DNA of 64,000 nt, taken from assembly GCA_017506865.1 (NCBI GenBank), contig JAFCMP010000554.1, positions 248,001 through 312,000 on the forward strand, read 5' to 3'. Shown one piece after another: positions 6,495 through 59,392 of the stretch. Below the pieces are notes generated by a model. The model saw nothing but the letters and a program-made list of their open reading frames with translations. It was not told the DNA's origin and made no database searches. Position numbers and translations under genes: made by a program. The DNA comes from Tribonema minus. Its lineage: Eukaryota > Sar > Xanthophyceae > Tribonematales > Tribonemataceae. Numbering within the stretch: position 1 is the stretch's first letter; the number at the start of each line of letters is the position of its first letter.

Positions 6495-7129
6495 CTGCCA
6501 GCGTGTCACCAATGGCATGTTCAAGTGACACGACTTTCTCTTAGATCACGAATGCATACGTTCGGCAGACAAAGTGACATTGTTATGGCAGAGAGAGACA
6601 GGTAATCTGGCGTAAGACAGCAGCAGGACGCTGTGACGCGCCGCGGAGATGCAGCTGGCACACTATGGAGTTGCTACCTACAAGTGCACAGCACCAAAGG
6701 CAAAATGTGTTTTTAGCAAGTTTGGGCGACCTCTCAGTGCTTGCATTGCTATGCACAATTGTGATCGAAGAGTTCACCCCTGACCTGAATACTAAATGGT
6801 GAAGACACAGCATTGGAATGGCAGCAGCATTCACAGCTACTTCGCATTTCTACAGGGTCCCTCATGGCAAGAGCACTGCAGCAAGCTGCTGCAAGTGCAA
6901 CTGGTGCTCCCCATCCATGATGCATAATCATGTTCAACCTCAAGCCCACAGCCTGACAATCTACACACTCTGCTTTGCAGCACACCTCTATGGCTTCAGT
7001 ATCCAATGCATCCTCGCAATGCTGTGGTCATACATGCCAGGTCGATGGCCAAACTTGCGCGAACAGTCGTGTTGTGCTTTGCGAATCTGTATGAATCTGA
7101 CTCATATGCAACGCCTTGCACAGGCGCCG

Positions 7130-8309
7130 CTATGCTCCAAAAGAGTCGTATGAACTGCGATCGCGCCGCACCTGCACTGCCGCCGCAAACCCAGACATCG
7201 GTTTCGGAGCGCCCTCGCTGCTGCCCTCTGCCGCCGCCGCAGCCGCTGCCGCTGCCGCTGCTGCAGTTTCAGCCTCCTGCTTCGCCGCCGCCGCCTCCTT
7301 CTTGGCAGCGACGCCGCTCTCTATCTCCGCCGCCGCCCTGCGCATGCGGCTGCTGAGATTCGCGCCAAACTCCGCCACCGCCTTCAGCCCTGGCTTGGGC
7401 TGCGGCAGATCTGCCGTTTCGCCGCTGCCGCTGCCGCTGCCGCCGCCGCCGCCGTCGCCATGCCCCCCAGCGGCAGCGGGCGCGCCGCCCGTCGACGGCA
7501 GCGGATTGCTGGTGCCGAAACTGGACATGGTCCAGGTGAAGAGCGGCTTGGGGGGCGGCGCAGTGTGAGCGCGCGGCAGCGATCCCGCCGGCAGCGGCGC
7601 TGCGCGCAGCTCGAAGTGCCGGTGCGCCGCCGCCGCCGCCGCCGCGGCGCTCACGCCGATCAGGTCCCCGTCCTCGTTGCTACCGCCGCGCTCCCGTGAC
7701 GGCGGCTCCGCGTCGCCGTCGAACCACGACTGGCGGCGGTGCGCGGCGGTGCGGCCGCCGCCGCCGCCGCTGCTGCCGCCGCCGCCCAGCGCCGCCGCGA
7801 AACCCAGCGCGCCGCCGGCGCCGTCGTGCAGCGGCGAGTCGTCGCCCGTGCCGCCGGCGCCGCCGCTGAGCGACATGGTGCTGCCGGCGGCGGACGCGGA
7901 GAGCGACTCGACGACCAGCGACGCCGTCGTGGCGCGGCTCAGCAGGCTGTCGGGGCCGCCGTCGCCGCAGTTGCTGCTCTCGTCGTCGCTGAAGGACAGG
8001 GCGAGGCGCGTGGGCAGCTCCACGACACCGCCGCCGCCGCCGTCAGCGGCAGCGGCAGCTGCAGCAGCAGCAGTGCTCACGGTGGCAGCGCTCAGTGTGC
8101 TGTGGTGGTGATGGCGATGCGCGCCACCGGCGCTGGCGCGCAGCGTGGCGGCGGAGCTGTCGCCGTGGTGCCAGATGTCACCGCCCGCCGTCGGTTCAGC
8201 AGCGGCTGACAGCTGCAAGTGGTGGTGGGCGAAGGCGGAAGCGGCGGCGGCGGGCGCGTCCATGCTGCTGGCGCCGCTGATCTCTCTGAAGGACCCGCCC
8301 TCCATCTCA
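7130..8309 (-). CDS. Ankyrin-DENN gene, last exon (low-complexity tail)
   Basis: Acceptor ccctcag, one base completes Arg with exon 26, then [19 protein letters not shown] and about 370 residues rich in Ala, Gly, Ser and His. The tail includes HHHH, Gly/Ser runs and the island [16 protein letters not shown]. It ends with a basic Ala-rich helix ([20 protein letters not shown]) and [10 protein letters not shown], stop TAG at 7132-7130. Probably disordered; GCN and GGN triplet runs suggest length variation. Confidence 0.7.
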
Positions 8310-42747: not shown

Positions 42748-44733
42748 TCAAGCTGCGCTGGTGAGACACATGGTGCATAAAAGAGCTGCTGCCGTCTGTG
42801 TCTCACAAATGTCAGCGCAGTATGCGCTAAGCACAGCCTGATTGCCGGTGGGAGACTGTGCTGTGCTAGTGTAAGCACCGCCGCGCACCCCCCCTGCTGC
42901 TGCGCCTGGCGGCTGCGCGCCATCGCCACGCCTCTCCTTGCTTGAGCGCCATGTGTGCTGCGCCTTATGCCGCGCCTGCCAGTCGCGGAGGCGTTGTTGC
43001 TCCTCGGGCGTGTGCGCCGCCCAGTACTCCCGCCTCTTCTGCTGCCGCCGCGAGAGCGGCCGCCCAAAGCTGCTGCCTGCGACGCGCATGCTGCGCCGCG
43101 CAGCGCTAATGCCGGCGCGCGGTCGCGCAGGCGCTGCTGCCGCCGCCGTCGCCGAGCTCGCCGCACCAGCGCCGCCACCCTTGTAGCATGCGCCGCTACT
43201 GCCGCTGCGGGCTGGAGTAGACTGGGTTGTGCGCCCAGCTAAAGTGCGACGGCTGTGAAGCGCCACTGCTGTTGGCGCTAAAAGTGCAGCAGCTGAGATG
43301 CCGCTGCCAGGCGCGCCGCCGCGTACGCGCTTGAATGGGAGCGCCGCTGTTGCCGACGCTGGAAGCGCAGCTGCAGCGTCGCCGCTGCTGTACTCGTCAG
43401 TGTTGCATGCGTGCCCTGCATGCGCCGCCATTGTCGGCGCTGCGAGCACGGCTGCGGTGTCGCTGCTGCCAAGCGCGCCACCGCTGCGTGCGTGCATGGA
43501 TGGAAGCGTTGTCGCTGCCGGCGCTGAACAAGCGGCTGAACCGCTGCTGCTGTCACGTGCGCGCGTGTCATGAGCGCGCACAGATGGAAGCGCCTCTGCT
43601 GCTGGCGCTGAAAGCGCAGCTGACACGCCACCGCTGCTATTCGTGCCCCTGCCGCAAGCGCTTGAAGATGAAGGCGCTGACACGTCTTGCACGCCACTGC
43701 CGCAAGTGCGCGTAGATGAAGGCGCCGGCGCCAAAAGTGCAGCTGCTGACATGCCGCCGTTGCCGTGCGCGTACTTGTTGCAAGCGCGGGTAGTGCGCAC
43801 AGCTGAAGTGCGACGGCTGTCGTGCGCGCCCCCATCGCGCACGCGCACTGCTGAAACTGCCGCCGCTGCTGGTGCTGAGAGCGCGGCTGCAGTGCTGGTG
43901 CTGTCCTGCGCGCCCCCGTCGCCAGCGCACGTAGATGAAAGCACCGCTGCTGCTGGCGTTGAAAGCGCGGCTGAGCTGCCGCTGCTGCCGTGTGCGCGCA
44001 TGTCGCAAACGCGCACATATGGAAACGCCGCTGCTGTCGGCGCTAAAACCGCGGCTGACATGTCGCCGCTGCCGTGCGAGCGCCTGTCGCAAGCGCACAT
44101 AGATGGATGCGCCGCTGCTTCTGGCGCTGGAAGTGCAGCTGACATGTCGCCGCCGCCGCGCGCGCCCTTGTCGCCAGCGCGCGTAGATGAAGGCGCCGCC
44201 GCTGGTGCTGCGGTGAGCGCCTCATGCAGCTGTACCTGCGTCGACACCGAGCATGCCGGCGCAAGCTCGACCTGCGTGGACGCTGAGCACACCGGAGCCA
44301 GCACAACCTGCGTTGAAGCCGTCGCCAACTCCCGCTGCGGCAGCTGCTGAACCTGCTGAAGCTTGCTCTCCACCTCTGCAATCCGCGCCTGAAGCAGCTT
44401 TTTTTTGCTATTTGCTGCTTCCAGAGCTGCCTCGAGCCGTATTGCTCTATACTTTGTCTCCCTGAAAGCTGTGGCTGCCTCGCGCAACTTGCTGTGCAGC
44501 TCAAAGTCGTGCATGCCCAGCACCTCCGTAACAGAAACGCCACTGCAGCCGGCCAGATCCAGTACGTCGAGCATCGGCTCTCCCCACGCCCAAAGTTGTG
44601 ACTCGATCAGAGCACGCTTAGCGACATGCTCGTGCCGCTTGTGTTGAAACATGCCGTGGAGGTGACAGTGGTAGGGTAGACTCTCCCCCCCCGCCTCCAT
44701 TCTCGAGCGCAGCTTGAGGGTGGTGGCGTCCAT
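42748..44733 (-). CDS. Element ORF, copy 2: coiled-coil, Ala-rich repeat protein
   Basis: 661 residues. N-terminal conserved-looking 110 residues with YHCHLHGMFQHKRHEH and LGMHDFELHSKLREAATAFR. A coiled coil follows (YRAIRLEAALEAANSKKKLL then IAEVESKLQQVQQL). After that come roughly 15 repeats of about 26 residues of the type AALSAPAAxxLPSxRAxxxG. The C-terminus is strongly basic (GRPLSRRQQKRREYWAAHTP). It could be a nucleic-acid-binding structural protein of the element. No family recognised. Overlapping frames on the other strand are shadows. Confidence 0.6.
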   Translation of the reverse strand: MDATTLKLRSRMEAGGESLPYHCHLHGMFQHKRHEHVAKRALIESQLWAWGEPMLDVLDLAGCSGVSVTEVLGMHDFELHSKLREAATAFRETKYRAIRLEAALEAANSKKKLLQARIAEVESKLQQVQQLPQRELATASTQVVLAPVCSASTQVELAPACSVSTQVQLHEALTAAPAAAPSSTRAGDKGARGGGDMSAALPAPEAAAHPSMCACDRRSHGSGDMSAAVLAPTAAAFPYVRVCDMRAHGSSGSSAALSTPAAAVLSSTCAGDGGAQDSTSTAAALSAPAAAAVSAVRVRDGGAHDSRRTSAVRTTRACNKYAHGNGGMSAAALLAPAPSSTRTCGSGVQDVSAPSSSSACGRGTNSSGGVSAALSAPAAEALPSVRAHDTRARDSSSGSAACSAPAATTLPSMHARSGGALGSSDTAAVLAAPTMAAHAGHACNTDEYSSGDAAAALPASATAALPFKRVRGGAPGSGISAAALLAPTAVALHSRRTLAGRTTQSTPARSGSSGACYKGGGAGAASSATAAAAAPARPRAGISAARRSMRVAGSSFGRPLSRRQQKRREYWAAHTPEEQQRLRDWQARHKAQHTWRSSKERRGDGAQPPGAAAGGVRGGAYTSTAQSPTGNQAVLSAYCADICETQTAAALLCTMCLTSAA

Positions 44734-46197: not shown

Positions 46198-46337
46198 ATG
46201 GGGAAGGGGAAGGCCTCGAAGCGTGGGATATTGACGGGCAAGCAGCTGGTCGCCAAGAGAGCGTCGGCTCAGAAAATGCCAGCGGCCGAGCGCATACAGC
46301 TGTTCGCCGAGTGCAAGAGCACTGCCGCCAAGTGTAA
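46198..46337 (+). pseudogene. Left flank of an older coding remnant
   Basis: Reads MGKGKASKRGILTGKQLVAK then AAERIQLFAECKSTAAKC up to the Ty3 element. A matching-strand frame continues the same style on the other side at 59069. The product is not recognised; it may belong to an older virus-like or transposon stretch. Fossil, interrupted by the insertion. Confidence 0.45.
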
Positions 46338-46545
46338 TGTGGTGACACTGGATGTTGGAGTGTCACCTGTAACTGTTACGGTTGGCAGTTACGAGTGGTT
46401 CGTTGTTGTTTGTTTGGCTCAGACAAGAGCAGCAGCCCCAGAATACACATAGCACAGTTCGGTCAGCTGTGTTGTGTGTGGGTGTCTTCTCTGCATTGTT
46501 CCCTGCACTTGCTGAAGTGTAGTACGGAGACTAGTTGTTTCATCA
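46338..46545 (+). repeat. 5' LTR, 208 bp
   Basis: Starts tg, ends ca. I find no difference from 58861-59068 when read against it. It contains an internal near-palindrome gtgacactgg...agtgtcacc. Confidence 0.9.
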
Positions 46546-46547
46546 GT

Positions 46548-46562
46548 TGGTTCCCGAGTACG
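46548..46562 (+). other. tRNA primer-binding site
   Basis: tggttcccgagtacg two bases after the LTR; its complement ends in acca as a tRNA 3' end would. The tRNA was not identified. Confidence 0.65.
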
Positions 46563-46605
46563 AAAAGACGACCTTTGACCAAATCCACCAGGCGATAGCG
46601 GTACG

Positions 46606-47787
46606 ATGGCGCACGAGCAGGACTCGGCGCGTGCTGCATCAGGAGTAAACTCTCGCGCAACGCGGAGCTCTGGAGTTGTGTTGGCCAAGCTGCCCTATGG
46701 CCACAACCCGGAGCCGAGGCGTGTGCAGAGGTCACGGAGTTTGTCCGTGGGACGCGCAGCATCACTGGCAGATGCTGTTGCGATCAAGGCTGGAGACGCT
46801 GCTGGTGGCGCAGTCGTACCAGCCCAGCGTGCGAACGAGCTAGCAAGCGGCAGCGCAGTGAGAACAGAGCCTGTGCCAGGGCCTGCAACTGACGCTGCTG
46901 CGGCGGCTCCGCACCACTTGTCCACCATCGGGAGCAGCGACACCACTTCAGGTCCAGTATCTGTCGCTGACCACGCTTTGGTGGAGTGGGCAGACAGTGC
47001 TGCTGCCGACTGGGGGCACGAGTCTGGCGGCAAGCCTTCTGGACCCACAGGACTTCTTGGCGCCCTCGCCGACAACCCGAAGCACCTGGTCATCCGCCCG
47101 ATGGGATCTGGGCCCGCAATGGACGCGGTGCCCTCTCCTAGGGAGCGTGAAATGGAGCAGGAGGAGCAGCGAAAGGAAGCTGCGACGGTGGGGCATATGA
47201 CTGCCGAGGAGGACTTGGACTTGCAGCTCAACATGGAGTTGCAGTACCTGCAGTCCGAGGTAACCAGCCTCAAAGGGGGGCTCGCAGGGGTGGCCAACAC
47301 CACCTCTCTCATGGGGCAGGATCTGTGCATGGTAATTACGCACAACTTGCCCGGTATCGACACATCGCTGCGCAGGCACCAGATGCAGCTGGCGGAGCAC
47401 GCTAGTGCACTGGCGCAGATGGGGAGTGGCCCCACCATCGCAGGCGGTGCAGCATCACAGCGCGACATGGACGCGCTGGTACAGGATGTGATTCCTGTCA
47501 TACAAGGAGACATGGCGGCCATCGCGGAGAGCATCGCGGAGGTCGGTGAGAGGGTCGCGACTGCGGAGTTGCGGCTGATCCACATGGGTGAGCGCCTGTC
47601 AGGAGTGGCAGCGGAGGTTGCGCAGGGGCAAAAGCGCATGGAGGAGGTGATCGCGCGGCAAGAGGATCTGCTGCGGCGGCACAACAACGCTGCAGCGGGC
47701 GTGGGGGACATGCGGCGCCAGCTATTTGAGGTGGGCACTAAAGTTGCGATGCAAGCATGCGCAGCGTCGTACCACAACGGCGTATGA
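46606..47787 (+). CDS. Element ORF1: coiled-coil protein upstream of gag
   Basis: 393 residues beginning MAHEQDSARAASGVNSR. After an Ala/Ser-rich lead, the second half is a long heptad-patterned region (LDLQLNMELQYLQSEVTSLK, IAESIAEVGERVATAELRLI, MEEVIARQEDLLRRHNNAAA). It overlaps the gag frame by 62 bp in another frame. Ty3 families are known to use frameshifting, but whether this overlap does so is unknown. Probably a structural or gag N-terminal unit. Confidence 0.65.
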   Translation: MAHEQDSARAASGVNSRATRSSGVVLAKLPYGHNPEPRRVQRSRSLSVGRAASLADAVAIKAGDAAGGAVVPAQRANELASGSAVRTEPVPGPATDAAAAAPHHLSTIGSSDTTSGPVSVADHALVEWADSAAADWGHESGGKPSGPTGLLGALADNPKHLVIRPMGSGPAMDAVPSPREREMEQEEQRKEAATVGHMTAEEDLDLQLNMELQYLQSEVTSLKGGLAGVANTTSLMGQDLCMVITHNLPGIDTSLRRHQMQLAEHASALAQMGSGPTIAGGAASQRDMDALVQDVIPVIQGDMAAIAESIAEVGERVATAELRLIHMGERLSGVAAEVAQGQKRMEEVIARQEDLLRRHNNAAAGVGDMRRQLFEVGTKVAMQACAASYHNGV

Positions 47788-49867
47788 GACATCCTTCCAC
47801 TCTGTGGGTAGCAACTTTGGCAGCGCAGCACCCAGTGTGGCTCCCGAGGACAGCGTGTCAGTAGCAGACTTCAGCACCAGCGGCCCGGCAGTGCCGCTTA
47901 GTACGATCCGCAGCAGCAGCGTGGCACGACCGCCTATTGCGCCATACGCTGCACCATTGGCTGGGCCTGGAAAGCACGCGTCGCCGAGCGCATCGGCGGC
48001 GCCGACCATTCCTGCTGGCGGCGCTGACGCCCGGCCACTGCGTCAACAACTGGAACGTGTAACAAGCAGCTACGCTGCTGACTCGTCGGATGCGACTTTG
48101 GCACCCACAGCGCAGCCCACTATGAAGCCCGACGCTCAGCTGCAGCTGCAGCATGCAGCAGATCAGAGCCACTTCCATCAGGCTCTGATGACACTTACTA
48201 TGCAGCGCGATGCAGCTACGGCAGAGGCTCAGCAGCTACGGAGGGTCAACGCTGGCCTATCGGCGGCGCCAACGGCCGCAATGGCGGCCGCCCCAGGTAC
48301 TATGCAAGCAGCGGCTACCCAGCAGAGGCCGTCGACGACTGCTGCGCCAACTGCCTTGCCTGCTGCCACCCTCGCGGACGGCGGCAGCAGCGACTTTGGC
48401 GCCGCAGCCCGCGGCGCCGGCAGCAGCGGCGGCGCTGCAGGCAGCGGCGGCGCCGGAGGCGGCGCCGGCGGCGACGGCGGCGGCGGCGGCGGAGGCGGCA
48501 GCGGCCCCTCTAGATCGCCCCGGGGCACTGTACCGGTTGGCGCAGCCTCTGGCGGCGGCAGCGGCGGCGGCGGTGGAGGCGGCGGTGGTGCAGGTGGCGC
48601 TGGTGGTGGCGGCAGTGGAGGCAGCCGCGACGACAACTTTGATCGTGATGGCTGGGCTCTGCGCCGTGTACCGGCAGACTTGGACAAGCTGTTCCATGGC
48701 CTCACGCCTGTAAACCGCGGCGACGAGTATGTCGTGTGGCAGATTGGCAGTCAACTGCTGGTGCACCTGCGCCACGCCTGCTCACTCGCGCGTCAGAAGG
48801 CCAAGCTGCCGCAGGTGCTCAACAGGGAGGACGACTTTGGTTGCGAATGGCTGGCCCCCTTTACCATGGGCCTGTGTGTCGCCTTACGGGGCTCGCATCC
48901 GGCAGCAGCAACGGTGCGCGAGCAGGCAGAACAATGGATCGCGGAGGGCGCACGGGGAGTGGCGGCTGGCACGAGAGACCTGCAGCTCTACAAGTGGCTC
49001 ATGGAACAACTGGGGGAGCACTTCCAGCAAGGTCAGCCTTCTCGCATTGCGGCGGACCTGTTACGCGTGGCGGTGCGCAAAGACACGCCATTCCGTGATG
49101 CGCTCAACTACATGCAGTCCAAGTGCAACCTGTCCGCAATGATCGACCCGACAAACGACAACCTACGCGTCCAAGCTCTTACGGGCTTGGTAAACAGGCA
49201 ATACCCAACAATTGCCGCGCAGGACAACATTCGGGACATCATCAACCGCCACACACGCTACAGCATGCACCAGGCGCTTGAGGCGCTCAAGGCGCACCGC
49301 TCCGTGCAGCATCTCGCCAGCGGCGCACCCGCCGGCTACTCTATATACCCCGAGACACTCAGCACGGGCTCAGGCGGAGGCGCCAGCGGTCTAAGTGGCG
49401 GCAATGGTGGCGGTGGCACCAATGATTACGCGCTGGGCGACAGGAGGCGCAGGCAGCAGCGTGAATCAGTGACACTGAACTCCATGGCTCTGTTGGCAGT
49501 GGTGGAGGAGAAATTCACCAGCTCGGAGCGGGCGCGGGGTAACGCGCTGGGGTGCTACAACTGCGGCGGTGATCACCTGTTCAGCGCATGCTCGGAGGCA
49601 TTCAACCACGCAGGTTGGGCAGCGGCAGCAGTACAACGCCCACTGGTGCAGAAATTTGCGCCTACGAACCAGACGACGTGGCAGGCACTCCGGTCGCGCG
49701 TACGTGCTTTCAACAGCGGCGATGCCTCCTCGCTTCAGGGCCCGCGCGGCAGAGATTCCGCAGATGGTGGAAGCGGAAGTGGCGCTGGCGGTGGCAGGAG
49801 CTACAACCGCTACGGGGGCGGCTACGGCCGCGGCGGCCGTGGCAACAGTGGCAACAGGGGCACCTAG
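47726..49867 (+). CDS. Element gag: capsid-like with zinc knuckle
   Basis: 713 residues. Ala/Gly-rich first half with long Gly runs (48410-48640), a helical capsid-like region (WALRRVPADLDKLFHGLTPV to SVQHLASG), and one CCHC-type knuckle (CYNCGGDHLFSAC, about 49554-49592). A Gly/Arg-rich RGG-like tail follows (YNRYGGGYGRGGRGNSGNRG). It lies in the same frame as pol with a short gap, as in families that reach pol by read-through. Confidence 0.75.
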   Translation: MRWALKLRCKHAQRRTTTAYETSFHSVGSNFGSAAPSVAPEDSVSVADFSTSGPAVPLSTIRSSSVARPPIAPYAAPLAGPGKHASPSASAAPTIPAGGADARPLRQQLERVTSSYAADSSDATLAPTAQPTMKPDAQLQLQHAADQSHFHQALMTLTMQRDAATAEAQQLRRVNAGLSAAPTAAMAAAPGTMQAAATQQRPSTTAAPTALPAATLADGGSSDFGAAARGAGSSGGAAGSGGAGGGAGGDGGGGGGGGSGPSRSPRGTVPVGAASGGGSGGGGGGGGGAGGAGGGGSGGSRDDNFDRDGWALRRVPADLDKLFHGLTPVNRGDEYVVWQIGSQLLVHLRHACSLARQKAKLPQVLNREDDFGCEWLAPFTMGLCVALRGSHPAAATVREQAEQWIAEGARGVAAGTRDLQLYKWLMEQLGEHFQQGQPSRIAADLLRVAVRKDTPFRDALNYMQSKCNLSAMIDPTNDNLRVQALTGLVNRQYPTIAAQDNIRDIINRHTRYSMHQALEALKAHRSVQHLASGAPAGYSIYPETLSTGSGGGASGLSGGNGGGGTNDYALGDRRRRQQRESVTLNSMALLAVVEEKFTSSERARGNALGCYNCGGDHLFSACSEAFNHAGWAAAAVQRPLVQKFAPTNQTTWQALRSRVRAFNSGDASSLQGPRGRDSADGGSGSGAGGGRSYNRYGGGYGRGGRGNSGNRGT

Positions 49868-49954
49868 GGGTGCGACCCCCAGCCCACTCCTGGCTGGGGG
49901 GGAGCACTTGGAGCCTCTAGTGTCACTGGGGGGGGGAGTGACGCCCTCCCCCCG

Positions 49955-52900
49955 ATGACAGTCAGAGACGCTGCGGCAGCAGCGGCGCCTGCGGGCGTCG
50001 CGCAAGCTGCAGTGCGCGCGACGTCTGCGGGGGCGACGGCGAGCGCCGCCCAAGCAGCTGACGCGCAGCGGAGCGCTGCGATGGCAGCGGCGCCCTCGGG
50101 CGCCGCGCCAGTCGCAGCGCGTACTTCTGGTGTGGCGGCGCCGCGGCGCGCCGCGCACGCACCAGAGGCACTACGGAGTGCTGTGGCAGCAGCGGCGCCT
50201 ACTGACGTCGCGCAAGCTGCAGCACGCGCGGCTTCTGCGAGGGTGCCGGTGAGCGCCGCCCAAACGGCTGACGCGCAACGAAGCGCTGCGATGGCAGCGG
50301 CGCCCTCGGGCACCGCGCCGGTCGCGGCGCGTGCTGCTGGTTTGGCGGTGCCTGCGCGCGCCGCGCACGCACCAACAGCACCACGGAGGGCTGCGGCAGC
50401 AGCGGTGTCTATGGACGTCGCGCAAGCGGCGCGCGCAGCTTCTTCAGTGGCGCCGTCGAGCGCCGCCCAAGAGGATGACGCGCAGCGGGGCGTTGCGATG
50501 GCAGCAGCGCCCTCGGGCGCCGCGCCAGTCGAGGCGCGTGCTTCTGGTGTGGCGGCGCCGCGACGCGCCGCGCTCGCACCAGCAGCACCACGGAACGCTG
50601 CGGCAGCAGCGGCACCTTTGGGCGCTGCGCTGTCTGCAGTGCATGCAGCTTCTGCAGCAGCGGCGAGCGCCGCCCACGCAGCAGCTGCGCAGCAGAGCGT
50701 TACGACGGCGCAGCTTCCGTTGAGCGCTGCTGCTGAGGAGGCGCCCACGAACGCTGCTCAAGCAGCAACGGCGCGATGGAGACCGGCGGCGTTGGCGGCG
50801 CCTGATGGTGCTGCACAGTCGCCAGCGACAACAACTACGACTGTACAGCGATGGCCTATTTTGGGGCGACGTAAGTCCAGCGGCGCGCGGCTACGGCGCG
50901 CGCGCGCGGAGCGCCTGCAGCAGGAGCAGCGCGCTCGACAGCCGGTAGCACCCCTCAGCCCTATTCAGGAGCTTGGTACTCCAGCATGGAGACCCGTGCA
51001 TGCTGCGGCGGGTCATGGAGTTGGCGCGCACGCGTCATCGCAAGGGGGGGTGAGGATACCACCAGCACCAGCAGTGAGTAGCTGCAGCACGGCTACAACT
51101 GCAACTTCTGCGCCGGCAACGGCGCCACATTTGGCGACTGCAGCAGCTGCTGCGACACGACACACGACAACTCCATCTTCTACACCAACTTCAACTCCGA
51201 CATCAACTGCGACTCCCACACATTCCTCAAGACCGCCTTCAGCACCACTCAGCGGCGGCGACGCTGCTGCGGCGGCGCACGCCGCCGACGACGCCGCCTT
51301 TGCAGCGGAGCAGCAGCGCAGGCTGATAGCTCTGCAGCGGCTTCATGCTTTCAAGGTGGATGGCACGGCTCAACCTGAGCCGCAGCGGCGGATGCGCAGC
51401 TGGGCGCCGGCGGCAGAGACCCTTGGCGCCATCGACGAGGTGCTGGACGGTGAGGCGGGCCTGACAGCGGTGGAGATAGCCATGGCAGAGGAGGCGCGCA
51501 CTGTTGAGCGCTGCTTCGAGATACTGGCCATGTGGGCGCCGGAGGACGGAGCTGATGACGGGGCGGTCTTGGCATACTACGCTGAGGTGGCAGCGATGGA
51601 GGCCGCAGTACTACCTGTACCACAGCAGGCAAGCATGCCCAACGTAAGGGGCAAACTCTATACTGACGTGCACTCTAGGTTCAAGGCCCGTTTACGCTCT
51701 GCGCGCGCACTACGTTGCAAGTTTTCTAGGGACATTCTCTGGGACACTGGGGCCTCAGTTACTGCCATCAGGGAGCAAGCATTCCGCAAATTAGTTGCAT
51801 CAGGAGCCATAGAGCAACGGGATGTCCATCACCTCAGCAAACCTAGGGCAGTAGCCGGTGTTGACACATCCAAGAAGCCACAGCGCGTCACCCACGCTGT
51901 AGCGCTTCACTTTGAGGCTGATGGCCCAGACGGGGTAGCTTTCACTCAGCTGGCGCTCATTGTACCACATCTGCCACACGACATCATCATTGGGCGTGAC
52001 CACATCAGCAGACATAAGTGGCATGCAAGTCATAGTGGCAGTGGGCCCACATACGTGTATGGCGAGCCATCAGCAGAGCCCACCCCCAGCTTCAGTCCCA
52101 AAGTCCCAGTGTACACCTACGGGGAGGAACGCGATTGGGTGGCAGTAGTGCGCGTCGCAACAGAGCTAGATGGCCTTGAACATGGTGTGCAGACAGTTTG
52201 GGTTCAAGTGATGGAGTCTGATGGGATCACACCTGTCGTCTCCTGCCCGGGAGAACTGGATACAGCACATGTGACCATCGCGGAGGAATTCCTGAATCAC
52301 ATGTACACACGCGAGCTGACGGTTGGGCTGCATGCCAAGCCGGTCAAGCTCGAGCAGCGGGGGGAGCCCGTCTCGCTGCCACGTGGCACCGTGCTGGGCA
52401 AGGCGCGGCCGCTACGTGAGGTAACTGACAGCGTGCTGGAACGAGACCCGAACGCGCGCGCCACGGCGGTAGACGTTTATTGCGGCGCTGGCGGCCTGGC
52501 GGAGGGGCTCCAGCCCTACTTGAACGTCAAGCTCGCCGTTGACTCTGAGGAGCGCGCTCTTCGGATATACAAGGAGAATCACCCTCATACGGACGTCCGT
52601 CGCCGGGATATGGCGGACCCATCTACGCGCGCAGAGCTTATTGCAGATATGAGGCGGCTGCGCGCCGAGGTCTTATTAGGGGGCCCCCCCTGCCAGAAGT
52701 TCTCAACAGCAGGGGAGGGGGAGACGGCTTTGGGCATGGAGCACCTCTACTACATGCTGGAGGTAGCAATGGGCGCAGAGACCTGCCGACTACTGCAGAT
52801 TGAAAATGTTCCGGGCCTTAGGGCGGCACCGGAGCTGGCGGAGTTTCTGCGCTGCGCAGCACACGGCGGCTTCACGGTGCAGCAGGAGCTAGTGATCACT

Positions 52901-55900
52901 GGTGCAGACAGCCGCATTGCTCAGACGCGCACGCGTGTGTTTTGGCTGCTGGGGCGACCTGGCACTGGCGAGCACGACAGCGCGCGCATGCAGGCGTCTA
53001 TGCACCAGGCAGTGCAGTTGCTGACATATGCCAAGCAGCAAGCTGAGTACGACACCGTGCGCAACGTCACCAGCGACGTGCTTGACTCCAACGGTCAGCG
53101 GCGCGACTTCTTTGCAACAGTTGGCCGCAACACTAAGGCCAAACAGGTGCACTCTATGGACGGCCCCGCGCCGACCATTCGCGGCTGCACATACCGCCGA
53201 AACCTGCAGCCTAACATCGACGTGCGACCACAGGATGCTACGCAGGACCCGGCTGAGCACGCGCGCGCGGAGTACCTACCCTGGCATGCGCTGCGCGCCA
53301 TTCACAGCTTCCCCACCTCGTACAAGTGGGATGCTCCAGAGCCGCCTGACGTCACTGCCTACTCACAGATGCTGGCGAACGCGGTGTGCCCGCAAATGGC
53401 GGACCTACTGGGGGGGATCCTGCTGCAGAGCGGATTGCTGCATGATGTCGTGGACCAGGCGGCGGCATCGTCGCTGCCAGATCCAGTACCAACCCTCATC
53501 AATTCTGGCACCCACCACGCTTTCGGCAAGTATGGAGTGGCTCTTGCACAGGAGGCGCGCAGACGTGTGGCGCGCGGAGCGCGCGCCCCTCAAGCACAAG
53601 CTGCTGCAGCTGCGGCGGCGCCGGCGAGCGCTGCGACGGCGGCGCCGGCGAGCGCTGCTGCAGCAGAGCCGGCAAGCGCTGCTGCGGCGGCAGCATATAC
53701 AGGCATTGCGCGCAGTGCGCCGCGGGCTGCTGCCGCGGCGCCGCAGGGTGCCGCACAGTCAGCGGCCGCGCCGCGGAGCTCTGCGACAAAAGAGACGTCT
53801 TCTGGCCCCCTACACGGCGACACTGCTGCTGCTGCGCAGGCAGCGGCTGCATGCCGGGGCGCTGCGGCGGCATCGGTGCCGGCTGGCACCGTGCGCGCTG
53901 CGGCCCAAGCTGCCTCAGGGGCGGCTCATAAGGAGGTCGCGCAGGCAACAGTTGCGCGACGGAGCGCTGCGACGGCAGCGGCGCCCGAGGGCGCCGCGCC
54001 AGTCGCGGCGCGTGCTGCTGGTGTAGCGGCTGCGTCGGCGCACGCCTCGCGCGCACCAGTGACACCAGGGAGTGCTGCAGCAGCAGCAGCGCCTGTGGGC
54101 GCCGCGCCAGCTGCAGCGCGCGCAGTCTCTTCGGTGGCGCCGGCGAGCGCCACCCAAGCGGCGGACGCGCAGCGGAGCGCTGCGGTGGCAGCGGCGCCTA
54201 CGGGCGCCGCGCCTGTCGCGGCATACGCTGATTCTGCCGCGGCGCCGACCAGCGCCGCGCATGGAGTGGCAACTCAACAGAGCACTGCGGCAGCAGCGGC
54301 GCATGCTGGCGCTGAACCAGTCGCAGTGCACATGGCCACCGCAGTGGAGTGGGCGAGCTCCGCACAGGCGGCAGCGGCGCAGCAGCGCTCTGCAGCGGCA
54401 GCGGCGTCTGAGGACGCCGCGCATGCGGCAGCGGCTAGTGGGAGCAATGCTGCAGCGGCAGCATCAGTGACAAGCGATACAGCGGCGCAGCCCGCGCACG
54501 CGGCAGGCGCCGCCGCGGCGGCGCCAGCGCGCGCTGGGAGGGAGGAGCACATCTTTGTGCTGGACCTGCGCACTGACATTATGCGCTGCGAGGCGGAGCC
54601 GGAGGGTGACGCCGGCAGCAGCGCTGACGCGACTATTGCGAAGGGCGCAGCAGCCGTGCGAGAGGCGCTGCAGCAACACCTCGGTGAGGCCATTGACTTT
54701 GAGCCTAGTGGGAGCGCAAAAGTACACATTTCTGACAGCGGCGGCTTAAGTTTGGGGTCATACGTTCACGAAGACCCTAAGGTTAATGCTGCTTTGGCTG
54801 AGGCACGCAAGCACTTGCCAGACTACATGCTGGCAGTGCGCGTTGACCTGCAGGGATGGGACGTTGATCAGGTGGCGTGTTTGTGCCTACTGCTCGCTCA
54901 GTACAGCAGCAAAATGTTCTCAAAAGACAAGTGGGACATAGGGCATTGTAACACATTGCCCTTCCGCTTTGATCTCAAAGAGGGCAGCACACCGCACCAT
55001 GACCGTCCATATAGGTACTCTCCTGCAATGACGGCTCTGGTCAAGGTCGAAATCGACAAGCTGCTGGCTGCTGGCATCATCCGCCCTTCCAACTCTGAGT
55101 GGGCATCCCCAGTGGTGGCAGTGCTCAAGCCTGATGGCACTGCCCGAATCACCGTCAACTACAAGAAGCTGAACGCCCAGACCAAGATCCCCCAGATCCC
55201 CATTCCCAACATAGAGGATCTTCTCAATAGTTTGGGGGGCTCAAAGGTCTTCACCACCATGGACATCACCAGTGGGTACTTCACTAGTGCCATAGATGCA
55301 GACAGCATCCCCCTCACTGCCATGGTCACGTCGTTTGGCTTGTATGAGTGGCTACGGTGCCCACAGGGGGCAGCGGGGGCGCCAGGGCACTTTACACGCC
55401 TCATGCAGATGGTGCTTTCCGGCCTAGAGCGCGTCCAGCCCTACATTGACGACGTCATTGTGCACTCTACATCCACGGCTCAGCACCTCGACGACCTCAA
55501 AGCCCTTTTTCAGCGCCTAGAGCATCATGGGATGAAGCTAGCCCCCAGCAAGCTGCACATAGGGTGTAAGCACATCAAGTTCCTGGGGCACATTGTGGGC
55601 GTTGATGGCATCAGGCCAGATCCATCCAAAGTTCAAGCCCTACTTGAGATGCCCATCCCCTGCAACATCTCTCAGCTGCGTGCGTGGCTTGGCCTCGCAA
55701 ACTACTACCGGCGATTTATTCAGAACATGGCCAAGCTGGTAGCACCGCTCACCCATCTGATGGCCAAGGGGGTGGACTTCATAGTTGGCAGTGCTCAACA
55801 GCAAGCCATCCGCGAGGTCAACGAAGCCCTGGCGCTTCACACTTGCATGCAGTACCCCGACTACGCGCGCGCCAGCACAGGCGAGCGCCCCTTTGTCCTT

Positions 55901-58678
55901 GCCACAGACGCATGCAAGGAGGGCTTTGGCGCAGTGCTCTCGCAGGCCAACAACGACGGCGCGGAGCAACCGATCGCCTTCACATCTCGCGCGACTCTAC
56001 CCAATGAGCGCAACTGGTCTACTACCGACCTTGAAGCCGGCGCCATCGTCTTCGGCATCAAGAAGTTCAAACACATCCTGTGGGGGACGCCGTTTGTCCT
56101 CTACACCGACCACCGCGCTCTTCAGTACATCGACAGCCTTCGCGAGCGCACCGCGCGCGGCGCGCGCTGGAGCGAGTTCCTCAGCGCCTTCAACATCACC
56201 ATTCGCTACAAGAAGGGCGCGTCACACGGCAATGCCGACGGGCCAAGCCGCAATCCTGTCCCTGCTACACCACAAGATGCAGAGGAGAGCGAGCGCGAGC
56301 GGCTGCTCGAGGCGTACTGCCTGCAGGCCCACGAGTGGGAGCGGCTGGAGGCATTTGCAACAGCAGAGTACATCAACATCTGCACGGAGGTGGTAGCAGC
56401 GCTTCAAGGAGGGGGAGAGGAGCAGATTTCCGCGCTTGCTGAGGCGGCAGACGCTGAGGCGGGTGCATGGGAGTGCTTCGCTGAGCATCCTCAACTGGGC
56501 GTCATGACGCCTGGTGACTGGCAGCGAGAGCAGCGCGCAGATGCTCAGCTGGGGCCAATTTGCAACATGCTGCTTGGAGCAGGACTGCCAGCAGACGCGG
56601 CGCTTGCAGCCCAGGTACAGAAATGGGCCTTGCAGTGCAGCCTTGTCGTCTGCGGCAACGCTCAGCTCTTGGTGCACAACACCCCCGAATCCCCGCTTCC
56701 ACAGCTTGCCATTCCCCGGTCCATTAGGGATCAAGTTCTTGAGGCGATGCACGGCTCAGCTTGGGCAGGCCACCAGGGCATTAAACGCACATTGGAGCGC
56801 ACCCGCGCGCACTGCTGGTGGCCCTCTTGGACCCTAGACGTCAACTACTGGGTTAATCATTGCTGGCCCTGCCAAGCGTTCAAGCACACCGGCAAGCTGT
56901 CTCGCTGGCCCACTATATGGCGCGAGAGGCCCCCCTACGCCTTTCATAGCCTAGCGCTTGACCACTTCGGCCCCCTACCCCTCAGTGCTGGCGGCTTCAT
57001 GTACATACTGGTGGTGATGTGCCTGTTTTCGGGCTGGGTGTGGTGCTATCCCATCAAGCCTGGGGACTACAGTGCTGCTGGCACAGCTGAAGTTTTAGTC
57101 AACCAGCACAGCACTCGTCACGGTCCCCCTTCTAAGCTCCTCAGCGACCGCGGCAGCCTCTTCATGGCAGAGCTTTCTCAAGCTGTCTACAAGCAGATGG
57201 GCGTCAAGAAGCTTTCCACTACCGCATACCACCCTGAGTGCAACGGCAAGTGTGAGCGTTTCATGCAGGAGCTAGCCCAGATGCTCGCCATGTTAGTTGA
57301 TAGTGCCAAGAACAATTGGGCGGACTGGCTACCTCATATCAGTTTTGCCCACAACACTGCCTACAGCCGCGCCACCGGCGCAACCCCCTTCCTTCTGGCT
57401 ACTGGTCGCGAGGCCGCCGTCGCACTACACCTCATACTGGGCAAGCTTCAACAGCCCTTGGTCAAGCCTGGCACACATCCTTCAGTGTCACAGCTAGTGT
57501 TCGACATCCTTGAGCGGCAGCGCTCAGCCAACACCATTGCCAACCAACGTCATGCGCTGCGACGGGCTAAGGTGCTCCGCGAGAACACCGAGATCGCGGA
57601 GGCATTTGGACTACGTCAGTCGTTCAGCGCTGGTGAGCGAGTGTGGTACTACCATGTGCCGCGCACGCATACGGCATCTGCAGACACGGAGCCGGCACCA
57701 GTGGCGGGGGAGTTCAACAAGGCGAAGCGCACACTCTTTAGCAAGAAGCTCTTGGATAGATGGCATGGGCCCTATAGCATAATATTAGCGGGCCCGGCGG
57801 AGAGCGGCGGGGAGCGTGTGCAGGCCGGGTGTCTTCTGGTGGACATCAACGGACGGCCTACGCGCATATCGATGCGCCTCACCAAGAAGTGTCGCGACCC
57901 TAGCGACATGCGGCAGCAGCCGGAGACGTTGCCTGCGGGCTTCTCTCGCTACCTGCTGGCGAAGCACTGGAGCGAACATTCACCTGGCTCACTCTCTACT
58001 GACGACGTTGCTGCTCACAACTTCCAGCGGCACGGCGTAGAGGCGATACTTCAACATCGTGTAGCGGCGGCAGCGCGCGGGCGGGGGCACCGCCTACAGT
58101 ACCTAATACGCTGGGAGGGTGCAACCAGCGGGGGGATAGTTGACTCGTGGGAGGACTCCGAGCAGCTAGATGAGTGCCCCCAAGTACTCGAGGAGTACTG
58201 GTCTACATTAAACAAGGCCATTGCCTGTCGCGACATTACAGTGGCGGGCTCAAACACTCAGGTGGTCAAGCGTCAGCTGCGACGCGCCGTCAAGGCGCGG
58301 GGCGTTGGCGGCGTTCTGGCCCAATGTGGTGCGGGCTCGTATGAGCTTGCGCCTCTGGCGGAGGCGTTACTCCAGCCACCTGCGACATCGGTGTTGCAGA
58401 GTGCAGCTATCAGCGGACTGCAGCTTATGGCTGTTTTCAAGTTCACGGAGCCAAGCGGCGAAGAGCACCTTACTTGGTGTGAGGGCGAGCTCACAGGCGT
58501 AGTCTCAAAGGGGAAGACAAGGCGTACACAGATAGCTCATAGGGTGTTCTGGATTGTTGAAGGGGTGTATCAGACCCTAGTACTGGACCCTAGCTTGTAC
58601 AACACGCGCCCAGATGCATCGAATGGTTCTTGGTTCCTAGTTGGCACACAAGCCCAGCTGGAATCATTGCATGTGTAG
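49955..58678 (+). CDS. Element pol: PR, DNA methyltransferase, RT, RNase H, integrase, chromodomain
   Basis: 2907 residues. 1-350: Ala-rich repeats of about 70 residues. About 590-690: aspartic protease (ILWDTGASVTAI; PHDIIIGRD). About 835-1155: C5 cytosine methyltransferase with motif I DVYCGAGGLAEGL, motif IV GGPPCQKFS (Cys 913), motif VI IENVPG (about 950), motif VIII QTRTR (about 990) and motif X NAVCPQ (about 1142). About 1195-1530: second Ala-rich array. About 1670-1870: RT with YIDD (1830). About 1980-2090: RNase H (LATDACKEGFGAVL). About 2260-2470: integrase with a zinc HHCC and D2336, D2398, E2434 in DD35E spacing. About 2690-2750: chromodomain (LQYLIRWEGATSGGIVDSWE). The final 155 residues form an unassigned domain. 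Processing into single enzymes by the protease is inferred. Confidence 0.9.
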   Translation: MTVRDAAAAAAPAGVAQAAVRATSAGATASAAQAADAQRSAAMAAAPSGAAPVAARTSGVAAPRRAAHAPEALRSAVAAAAPTDVAQAAARAASARVPVSAAQTADAQRSAAMAAAPSGTAPVAARAAGLAVPARAAHAPTAPRRAAAAAVSMDVAQAARAASSVAPSSAAQEDDAQRGVAMAAAPSGAAPVEARASGVAAPRRAALAPAAPRNAAAAAAPLGAALSAVHAASAAAASAAHAAAAQQSVTTAQLPLSAAAEEAPTNAAQAATARWRPAALAAPDGAAQSPATTTTTVQRWPILGRRKSSGARLRRARAERLQQEQRARQPVAPLSPIQELGTPAWRPVHAAAGHGVGAHASSQGGVRIPPAPAVSSCSTATTATSAPATAPHLATAAAAATRHTTTPSSTPTSTPTSTATPTHSSRPPSAPLSGGDAAAAAHAADDAAFAAEQQRRLIALQRLHAFKVDGTAQPEPQRRMRSWAPAAETLGAIDEVLDGEAGLTAVEIAMAEEARTVERCFEILAMWAPEDGADDGAVLAYYAEVAAMEAAVLPVPQQASMPNVRGKLYTDVHSRFKARLRSARALRCKFSRDILWDTGASVTAIREQAFRKLVASGAIEQRDVHHLSKPRAVAGVDTSKKPQRVTHAVALHFEADGPDGVAFTQLALIVPHLPHDIIIGRDHISRHKWHASHSGSGPTYVYGEPSAEPTPSFSPKVPVYTYGEERDWVAVVRVATELDGLEHGVQTVWVQVMESDGITPVVSCPGELDTAHVTIAEEFLNHMYTRELTVGLHAKPVKLEQRGEPVSLPRGTVLGKARPLREVTDSVLERDPNARATAVDVYCGAGGLAEGLQPYLNVKLAVDSEERALRIYKENHPHTDVRRRDMADPSTRAELIADMRRLRAEVLLGGPPCQKFSTAGEGETALGMEHLYYMLEVAMGAETCRLLQIENVPGLRAAPELAEFLRCAAHGGFTVQQELVITGADSRIAQTRTRVFWLLGRPGTGEHDSARMQASMHQAVQLLTYAKQQAEYDTVRNVTSDVLDSNGQRRDFFATVGRNTKAKQVHSMDGPAPTIRGCTYRRNLQPNIDVRPQDATQDPAEHARAEYLPWHALRAIHSFPTSYKWDAPEPPDVTAYSQMLANAVCPQMADLLGGILLQSGLLHDVVDQAAASSLPDPVPTLINSGTHHAFGKYGVALAQEARRRVARGARAPQAQAAAAAAAPASAATAAPASAAAAEPASAAAAAAYTGIARSAPRAAAAAPQGAAQSAAAPRSSATKETSSGPLHGDTAAAAQAAAACRGAAAASVPAGTVRAAAQAASGAAHKEVAQATVARRSAATAAAPEGAAPVAARAAGVAAASAHASRAPVTPGSAAAAAAPVGAAPAAARAVSSVAPASATQAADAQRSAAVAAAPTGAAPVAAYADSAAAPTSAAHGVATQQSTAAAAAHAGAEPVAVHMATAVEWASSAQAAAAQQRSAAAAASEDAAHAAAASGSNAAAAASVTSDTAAQPAHAAGAAAAAPARAGREEHIFVLDLRTDIMRCEAEPEGDAGSSADATIAKGAAAVREALQQHLGEAIDFEPSGSAKVHISDSGGLSLGSYVHEDPKVNAALAEARKHLPDYMLAVRVDLQGWDVDQVACLCLLLAQYSSKMFSKDKWDIGHCNTLPFRFDLKEGSTPHHDRPYRYSPAMTALVKVEIDKLLAAGIIRPSNSEWASPVVAVLKPDGTARITVNYKKLNAQTKIPQIPIPNIEDLLNSLGGSKVFTTMDITSGYFTSAIDADSIPLTAMVTSFGLYEWLRCPQGAAGAPGHFTRLMQMVLSGLERVQPYIDDVIVHSTSTAQHLDDLKALFQRLEHHGMKLAPSKLHIGCKHIKFLGHIVGVDGIRPDPSKVQALLEMPIPCNISQLRAWLGLANYYRRFIQNMAKLVAPLTHLMAKGVDFIVGSAQQQAIREVNEALALHTCMQYPDYARASTGERPFVLATDACKEGFGAVLSQANNDGAEQPIAFTSRATLPNERNWSTTDLEAGAIVFGIKKFKHILWGTPFVLYTDHRALQYIDSLRERTARGARWSEFLSAFNITIRYKKGASHGNADGPSRNPVPATPQDAEESERERLLEAYCLQAHEWERLEAFATAEYINICTEVVAALQGGGEEQISALAEAADAEAGAWECFAEHPQLGVMTPGDWQREQRADAQLGPICNMLLGAGLPADAALAAQVQKWALQCSLVVCGNAQLLVHNTPESPLPQLAIPRSIRDQVLEAMHGSAWAGHQGIKRTLERTRAHCWWPSWTLDVNYWVNHCWPCQAFKHTGKLSRWPTIWRERPPYAFHSLALDHFGPLPLSAGGFMYILVVMCLFSGWVWCYPIKPGDYSAAGTAEVLVNQHSTRHGPPSKLLSDRGSLFMAELSQAVYKQMGVKKLSTTAYHPECNGKCERFMQELAQMLAMLVDSAKNNWADWLPHISFAHNTAYSRATGATPFLLATGREAAVALHLILGKLQQPLVKPGTHPSVSQLVFDILERQRSANTIANQRHALRRAKVLRENTEIAEAFGLRQSFSAGERVWYYHVPRTHTASADTEPAPVAGEFNKAKRTLFSKKLLDRWHGPYSIILAGPAESGGERVQAGCLLVDINGRPTRISMRLTKKCRDPSDMRQQPETLPAGFSRYLLAKHWSEHSPGSLSTDDVAAHNFQRHGVEAILQHRVAAAARGRGHRLQYLIRWEGATSGGIVDSWEDSEQLDECPQVLEEYWSTLNKAIACRDITVAGSNTQVVKRQLRRAVKARGVGGVLAQCGAGSYELAPLAEALLQPPATSVLQSAAISGLQLMAVFKFTEPSGEEHLTWCEGELTGVVSKGKTRRTQIAHRVFWIVEGVYQTLVLDPSLYNTRPDASNGSWFLVGTQAQLESLHV
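49985..50760 (+). repeat. Ala-rich repeat array A in pol, about 210-bp period
   Basis: Three to four units sharing DVAQAAxRAxS, SAAQxADAQRSAAMAAAPSG, AAPVAARASGVAAPRRAAHA. The second array (53590-54530) has the same words. Confidence 0.75.
52470..53430 (+). other. C5-DNA methyltransferase domain inside pol
   Basis: All landmark motifs of a Dnmt-type cytosine-5 methyltransferase are visible in order (I, IV, VI, VIII, X). A target-recognition-like stretch between VIII and X contains FFATVGRNTKAKQVHSMDGP and PTIRGC. It lies between protease and RT, in frame, with no intron. It would methylate cytosine in DNA using S-adenosylmethionine; target context is unknown. Confidence 0.9.
53590..54530 (+). 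repeat. Ala-rich repeat array B in pol
   Basis: Same repeat words as array A (ADAQRSAAVAAAPTGAAPVA, VSSVAPASATQ), more degenerate, between methyltransferase and RT. Confidence 0.75.
58038..58205 (+). other. Chromodomain of the element integrase
   Basis: GVEAILQHRVAAAAR, then LQYLIRWEGATSGGIVDSWE and QVLEEYW. Pattern (V/I)E-IL-hR...YL-RW-G...SWE...L fits the chromodomain, which in chromoviruses binds histone marks and steers integration. Confidence 0.8.
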
Positions 58679-58845
58679 TCACACGGTCATGTGCTTGGTA
58701 GAGACCCCGGCGTGTGAGAGGCGTCTTGTGCGGCATGCCTTTGCATATTGACTGCGTTTGCACAGGAGTCATTGCAATGTGTAGCATTGGCTTACGAGTC
58801 ATGTTGCATATGTGTAGTGGGTCCCCCTTGCAGTACCCTTTCCAA

Positions 58846-58860
58846 TCTAGGGGGGGTGAC
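58846..58860 (+). other. Polypurine-like tract
   Basis: ctagggggggtgac immediately before the 3' LTR, expected position for plus-strand priming. Confidence 0.6.
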
Positions 58861-59068
58861 TGTGGTGACACTGGATGTTGGAGTGTCACCTGTAACTGTT
58901 ACGGTTGGCAGTTACGAGTGGTTCGTTGTTGTTTGTTTGGCTCAGACAAGAGCAGCAGCCCCAGAATACACATAGCACAGTTCGGTCAGCTGTGTTGTGT
59001 GTGGGTGTCTTCTCTGCATTGTTCCCTGCACTTGCTGAAGTGTAGTACGGAGACTAGTTGTTTCATCA
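58861..59068 (+). repeat. 3' LTR, 208 bp
   Basis: Partner of 46338-46545, identical by eye. Followed by the target duplication gtaa. Confidence 0.9.
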
Positions 59069-59392
59069 GTAATGTGCTGATCGTCACGGGGCCGTCCGTG
59101 CCTGCAAACCTCAAGGAGACCCTCTTCACTATCTACTCGTATGCAAACTTTGTGAAGGTGTGGCAGGGTCACGTCGTCGTAGACTTCTTTATAGAAGTTG
59201 TTCCTACTGCTCGGATGAAGCAGACAATGCAGCTGGAACCGTCGTTGAGCGTGACCGCAGTCACGCGCGCCGGCGCCAAGCAATGCTTAGCCGGCATCAC
59301 ATACGAAGAGGTGGTGCGTCATGACATCACGATGCCTCCCGAACCTGCATGCGCTGATGGCTTCATCAACTTTGCTGTGCGCCCAGGTGGTC
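59069..59392 (+). pseudogene. Right flank of the older coding remnant
   Basis: Open plus frame VLIVTGPSVPANLKETLFTI, VVDFFIEVVPTARMKQTMQL and EEVVRHDITMPPEPACADGF. Well-formed protein-like sequence without a recognised family. It lies directly beyond the target duplication and in the same strand as 46198-46337. Fossil. Confidence 0.45.

Follow-up and report, generated by a model that had tools for sequence, protein, structure and literature searches.

A 64,000-nucleotide stretch of the Tribonema minus genome (contig JAFCMP010000554.1, forward-strand positions 248,001 to 312,000; hereafter the window, numbered from its first base) contains a Ty3/gypsy long terminal repeat (LTR) retrotransposon, positions 46338-59068, whose Pol polyprotein includes a predicted C5-cytosine methyltransferase (MTase) between the protease (PR) and the reverse transcriptase (RT). 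Homologous MTases occupy three Pol slots in this one genome: between gag and PR, between PR and RT, and between RNase H and integrase (RH/INT). We propose, with a probability of about 0.5, that the MTase was captured into Pol long ago and that, wherever the active site is intact, it methylates the element's own complementary DNA (cDNA), with a possible noncatalytic role in addition. The window element is young, its two 208-bp LTRs (TG...CA) being identical to one another, in agreement with the matched LTRs of the original prediction, which had been made from the letters of the window alone.

The Pfam DNA_methylase profile matched the domain over amino acids (aa) 838-1150 (52466-53404; E 2.6e-18, 67.0 bits against a cut-off of 22). 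The domain had first been placed at 52470..53430, where it indeed lies, although alignments carry its end slightly further, to about aa 1170 (53464). Catalytic residues Cys913 (52691-52693), Glu950, Arg992, Arg994, and Asn1142 are all present, and the motifs that we take to be I, IV (Cys), VI (Glu-Asn), VIII (Arg-x-Arg), and X (Asn) follow in order. Pfam and the residue alignment agree here with the earlier claim that these motifs lie in order within a single open reading frame (ORF) of 2907 residues. Structure prediction returned a complete fold with confidence, which scored better against DNA enzymes than against RNA enzymes. Judged by sequence, the domain is a C5-cytosine MTase with all catalytic motifs, for which DNA methyl transfer is the predicted activity.

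Given that none of the 35 Protein Data Bank (PDB) matches at E<=1 was a DNMT3 or DRM chain, and that human DNMT3A (the sole Dnmt3 row, on a long branch) fell outside the retrotransposon MTase group in trees, the window MTase is, on these comparisons, not Dnmt3-like, and a Dnmt3 origin found no support. Retrotransposon MTases formed a single group (support 94/93), separate from the DNMT2 group that holds the host DNMT2 (L004), in trees built without CMT, DNMT5, DNMT6, SymbioLINE, or viral rows. As far as these trees go, the phylogenetic comparison proposed originally sets the domain apart from DNMT3A and DNMT2. Across 17 retrotransposon MTases, the motif VI Glu and second motif VIII Arg were found in all 17, the first motif VIII Arg and motif VI Asn in 16, and the catalytic Cys in 15. 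The motif X Asn aligned in just 9 of 17, window included; at this position, the frames of A_P0003 and A_L005 are broken or cut short. Among host MTases, L004:1501-2019 matches DNMT2 (tRNA C38 methyltransferase; 2.3e-37), while L001, L002, and L003 are M.HhaI-like C5-MTase frames of 367-390 aa outside the retrotransposon group, L002 and L003 being nearly identical.

Searching the 158.18-Mb assembly (554 contigs) with aa 780-1180 of the window Pol returned at least 107 matches on many contigs, counts being lower bounds (403 candidates, 103 scored). At least 25 rows, including the window, span all 401 residues stop-free at 97-100% identity, and further matches were recorded at ~60-63% and 33-39%, some being intermediate. 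Over 4.2 kb, gaps ignored, 14 of 29 other copies diverge by 0.24-0.45% from the window copy. L023, L025, and L028, whose 9-20% divergence probably reflects nonmatching flanks, were left out of the CpG and selection analyses. Cys913, Glu950, Arg992, Arg994, and Asn1142 were retained in 30/30 best copies and Asn951 in 29/30. The ratio of nonsynonymous to synonymous polymorphism (pN/pS) in the MTase was 0.21-0.36 (in those 11 of the 26 pairs against the window copy that show five or more changes), compared to 0.56-0.91 in the second Ala-rich linker and 0.18-0.60 in the protease and adjoining link (10 pairs each). Between the window and L039, a sister at 63% identity, nonsynonymous (dN) and synonymous (dS) divergence were 0.295 and 1.25 for the MTase, 0.126 and 1.52 for RT, 0.235 and 1.86 for integrase, and 0.836 and 1.34 for the first Ala-rich repeats; these between-family values are rough, synonymous sites being near saturation. 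On both comparisons, the window MTase is under purifying selection, which in the pair with L039 is weaker than that on RT. A conserved, multicopy domain under purifying selection is supported.

The position of the MTase differs among Gypsy lineages. In the A clade (the window and L039, plus P0002 and P0007 from outside this genome), the order is PR-MTase-RT wherever length suffices. In the B clade, it is MTase-PR-RT: Pfam protease matches after the MTase were all below cut-off (L041, E 2.3e-4; L055, 0.003; L056, 0.048; L042, 0.16), a protease is visible by eye after the MTase in L041 and L046, and L043 gave no Pfam protease match. Lineage C (L045) has an MTase-like domain upstream of RT, and its protease was not located; the domain escapes Pfam, yet it shares 63% identity with L053 and L054, both of which are Pfam-called. 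In lineage D (L057), RT, RNase H, MTase, and H2C2 share a single 1889-codon frame, with the MTase at aa 1418-1580 between RT_RNaseH (1245-1361) and H2C2 (1834-1889). L039-L044 were chosen because an MTase was already known there, and L047, picked with an MTase expected, carries a broken form. All six Gypsy loci picked on contigs without a listed MTase also carry the domain (L045 and L046 taken from the listed RT matches and L055-L058 from those of H2C2, mostly for their long frames; L058 is also broken-frame). Of 473 RT and 433 H2C2 candidates, these lists show the top 150 each, and MTase-free Gypsy elements may exist beyond them. A Gypsy RT was also observed at ~6661-7251 of G000:C311, inside a reported 6208-codon open frame of about twice the usual length.

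A single origin of these MTases is moderately supported by their sequences, in that they form one group. The three slots could instead mean that related enzymes entered different Gypsy lineages on separate occasions, a rather unlikely account that nevertheless draws on the distinctness of the slots and on the RT tree. There, A and B were each recovered (98/98), but branching among A, B, C, D, and yeast Ty3 was without support, and A, B, and C are approximately as far from each other as each is from yeast Ty3. On such a tree, the MTase may have been captured once at the base or passed around. MTase and RT distances correlated with a rho of 0.56 (66 nonindependent pairs). The MTase of L057 is nearer to B than its RT distances would predict, which hinted at transfer of a B-type MTase into L057. 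RNase H distances from L057 to five B elements (2.3-2.7) were in line with those of the MTase (2.6-3.6) and did not uphold such a transfer, so the discrepancy looks like a fast RT branch.

In the proposed scenario of ancient capture and self-methylation, a C5-cytosine MTase would have joined Ty3/gypsy Pol at an early stage of the lineage leading to this host and persisted while the elements diverged deeply, its three present positions arising by repositioning or repeated insertion. Made within Pol, it would be packaged along with RT and integrase, and in intact-site lineages such as that of the window, it would most likely methylate double-stranded cDNA of the element itself, either ahead of integration or during it. 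The chromodomain and the Tudor-like region at the C-terminus of Pol may meanwhile direct that copy to marked chromatin, and copies marked in this way beforehand would then remain, quietly, in silent chromatin. We favour self-methylation for the intact-site lineages based on the position in Pol, the intact active sites, and the precedent of SymbioDIRS domains, which methylate CG in yeast (PMC5890265).

Several observations weigh against this interpretation as a full account, among them those from members that lost the catalytic Cys. Relative to L053 (STRCEGAS...) and L054 (STRCEEVS...), L045 lacks exactly 25 residues, in frame, whereby the catalytic Cys is deleted; in addition, ENV has become ENA. 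As L045 nests with L053 in the MTase tree (98/94), the loss of the catalytic loop is derived. Nonetheless, the family multiplied after the loss: querying with the L045 domain returned 27 rows, that of L045 among them, that are 98-100% identical to it. Of these, 26 are stop-free, and the rows align unbroken where those of the sister families split in two. Across the remaining domain, dN and dS were 0.225 and 1.39 for L045-L053, 0.257 and 1.65 for L045-L054, and 0.306 and 1.48 for L053-L054, values that indicate continued constraint after loop loss. Likewise, the MTase of P0002 has Cys replaced by Thr, Asn by Ser, and the first Arg by Thr within a stop-free Pol of 2106 aa. Catalysis is hence not essential for all members, and the constraint on the loop-less L045 family requires that either a second role or supply in trans be allowed. 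At least in that family, the domain may serve without methyl transfer, in nucleic acid binding or as a structural part of Pol; alternatively, activity could be supplied by other copies.

These families lend weight to the idea that the MTase is kept mainly for a noncatalytic job, such as binding element RNA or DNA or the spacing and folding of Pol, with methyl transfer being incidental or ancestral. As a general explanation, this is unlikely, given that the Cys is retained in 15 of the 17 retrotransposon MTases and all 30 window-family copies examined. Furthermore, the MTase of P0002 evolves fast relative to its RT, with MTase/RT divergence ratios of 7.3 (L039), 7.8 (window), and 4.3 (L040), compared to 3.5-3.8 for the pairs formed by the window, L039, and L040, as if relaxed following inactivation. 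It is conceivable, though we put it at somewhat less than even odds, that the MTase is a standing Gypsy Pol component in this host lineage, captured once, present in three slots, and performing an essential job that is at least in part not methyl transfer, given that a recently multiplied family stays constrained after deletion of the loop.

The CpG footprint of methylation in the element is also weak. Its CpG observed/expected ratio (o/e) was 0.91, compared to 0.87 for window bases 1-33000. Among copies, transitions per site at CpG (0.0955) were ~1.6-fold those at CHG (0.063) and CHH (0.058) sites, yet not above those at A/T sites (0.1005); in the MTase region alone, the respective values were 0.0684, 0.0585, 0.0370, and 0.0591. 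CpG decay was accordingly rejected as proof of self-methylation, and the KnitGypsy-Dnmt3 domain of Klebsormidium gave no methylation in yeast, a result that its authors regarded as inconclusive (PMC5890265). Finally, RNA may be the substrate. That the enzyme is an RNA C5-methyltransferase, with genomic RNA of the element or the primer tRNA as its target, is quite improbable, however, considering the placement outside the DNMT2 group of L004 and the higher scores of the predicted fold against DNA enzymes. The genome copy survey rules out an assembly chimera or contamination, for which no evidence was found, with at least 107 matches on many contigs grading from 100% through ~60-63% to 33-39% identity, and the one-off chimera, with other copies lacking the domain, that the original prediction had named as its refutation was not what we found. 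As a separate observation, CpG o/e was 0.42 across the LTR interval 46338-46547, against 0.91 for the whole element, an uncertain value from only 210 bp.

Features of the window element are collected in Table 1. Its LTRs, PR-RT-RH-INT order, and an RT closest to Ty3 among solved structures identify it as Ty3/gypsy, and RVT_1, RT_RNaseH, H2C2, and Chromo all exceeded Pfam cut-offs. The earlier description, of a Gypsy element with a chromodomain whose MTase is encoded in frame between PR and RT, holds, based on Pfam domain order and a DTGAS motif at aa 597. Pfam did not call the protease of the window Pol, whereas in P0002, which has the same domain order, it did (E 0.0011). A chromodomain follows integrase in the window element and is also present in P0002. 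With Ty3 as the sole outside reference, the RT tree backbone is too weak to place the element within chromoviruses, and chromodomain Gypsy elements also occur outside that group (PMC12477816). Tudor matches, weak and below cut-off, were found in four of five related Pol proteins (E 0.0017 to 0.15; none in L051); those at the C-termini of L048-L050 and L052 are of the PTM/DIR17 type. The gag-like ORF had no Pfam match.

Table 1. Features of the Ty3/gypsy element, in window coordinates
Feature	Position	Strand	Basis or remark
Target-site duplication GTAA, apparent, 4 bp, 5' side	46334..46337	.	Sequence inspection
5' LTR, 208 bp, TG...CA	46338..46545	+	Same sequence as 3' LTR
gag-like upstream ORF, RGG-rich C-terminus	47726..49867	+	TAG end in pol frame
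pol ORF, 2907 aa	49955..58678	+	Frame open from 49868, stop-free
Ala-rich repeats of ~105 nt, N-terminal to protease	49970..50814	+	Repeat analysis
Aspartic protease region, bounds approximate	51677..52114	+	Motifs DTGAS (aa 597), IIGRD
C5-cytosine MTase PF00145, aa 838-1150	52466..53404	+	Pfam; Cys913 at 52691-52693
Second Ala-rich repeat linker, weak constraint	53592..54420	+	Repeats, selection analysis
Reverse transcriptase PF00078	55124..55597	+	Pfam; best PDB match Ty3 RT, E 1.2e-59
RNase H PF17917	55883..56191	+	Pfam
H2C2 integrase zinc-binding PF17921	56711..56887	+	Pfam
Integrase core rve PF00665	56975..57235	+	30.9 bits, slightly under cut-off 32.6
Chromodomain PF00385	58037..58204	+	28.9 bits vs cut-off 25.1
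C-terminal region, Tudor-like in other lineages	58424..58675	+	By-eye alignment; no Pfam call here
3' LTR after purine tract AGGGGGGG	58861..59068	+	Same sequence as 5' LTR
Target-site duplication GTAA, apparent, 3' side	59069..59072	.	Sequence inspection

An in-frame TAG (49865-49867) divides the gag-like ORF from pol, which suggests stop readthrough; a readthrough hairpin at this codon was rejected, RNA folding being ordinary there (z -1.56). Directly inside the 5' LTR (46546-46563), GT followed by TGGTTCCCGAGTACGA resembles a primer-binding site (putative), and a tRNA search of the window found none. Outside the element, 42748-44733 on the minus strand is an ORF of 661 aa that contains 84-nt repeats and matches nothing in Pfam. 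Elsewhere in the genome, a light-harvesting family search gave 92 matches; the best PDB matches were fucoxanthin chlorophyll a/c proteins for the L059 exon (1.1e-27) and the LHCI polyproteins of 9vfj for the L062 exon (1.5e-29, summed over many weak repeats), followed by mixed types. These matches point to a photosynthetic host, perhaps an alga of the red lineage.

As the original prediction stated, retrotransposon-borne DNMTs are known. De Mendoza et al. 2018 (PMC5890265) described Dnmt3 in Gypsy elements of Klebsormidium and, for Symbiodinium, Dnmt3 in DIRS elements as well as an orphan DNMT in LINEs. According to the introduction of that study, two earlier studies, one being Iyer et al. 2011, had linked DNMTs to RT domains, and the Iyer et al. 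case may overlap with the present one. Orphan DNMTs have been catalogued, with known retrotransposon DNMT3s assigned to Copia and DIRS (PMC12344493). Among the closest likenesses is KnitGypsy-Dnmt3 of Klebsormidium nitens, in which a C5-cytosine MTase is likewise encoded within Pol of an LTR Gypsy element; it is intronless and under purifying selection (PMC5890265), with fewer copies than in Symbiodinium. Its MTase is of the Dnmt3 class, unlike that of the window, and its repeats are arranged as in DIRS, whereas the window element has ordinary LTRs. The words chromodomain and protease are absent from the main text on KnitGypsy-Dnmt3, so the comparison covers features other than position and pairing. 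SymbioDIRS-Dnmt3 resembles the Gypsy elements described here in carrying the MTase in Pol with differing domain orders in one genome, as two structures, old and active, for which the authors inferred two independent acquisitions (PMC5890265). It is, however, a DIRS with a tyrosine recombinase and a Dnmt3-class enzyme, in place of the H2C2 and rve integrase of the window element. Key residues are reported as conserved in all three Symbiodinium families, unlike the L045 family, which lacks the catalytic Cys. SymbioLINE-Dnmt shares an orphan, non-Dnmt3 MTase (PMC5890265, PMC12344493), but is a LINE with the MTase mostly in a separate upstream ORF, while the window element has LTRs and encodes MTase and RT in one frame. 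SymbioLINE-Dnmt also shows significant CG depletion, compared to the weak footprint in the window family. Chromodomain/Tudor Gypsy elements of Ectocarpus likewise have a Pol ending in chromatin-reader domains, with no cytosine MTase mentioned in the available text of PMC12477816.

Within the open-licence literature available (including PMC9998398, PMC9289625, and PMC12730594), neither a non-Dnmt3 DNMT in Gypsy Pol, nor three MTase slots, nor loop-less versions were found. New here, as judged from sequence comparison, is a non-Dnmt3 MTase in Gypsy Pol that groups with the enzymes of other, distant Gypsy lineages in the T. minus genome. The role of retrotransposon-carried DNA methyltransferases was left open in 2018 (PMC5890265, discussion). 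T. minus offers natural variants side by side: families related to one another either bear or lack the catalytic loop, and the three Pol positions are filled by related enzymes, a combination that would let methyl transfer be told apart from other roles of the domain within one strain. DNMT capture by Gypsy elements thereby extends beyond the Dnmt3 class.

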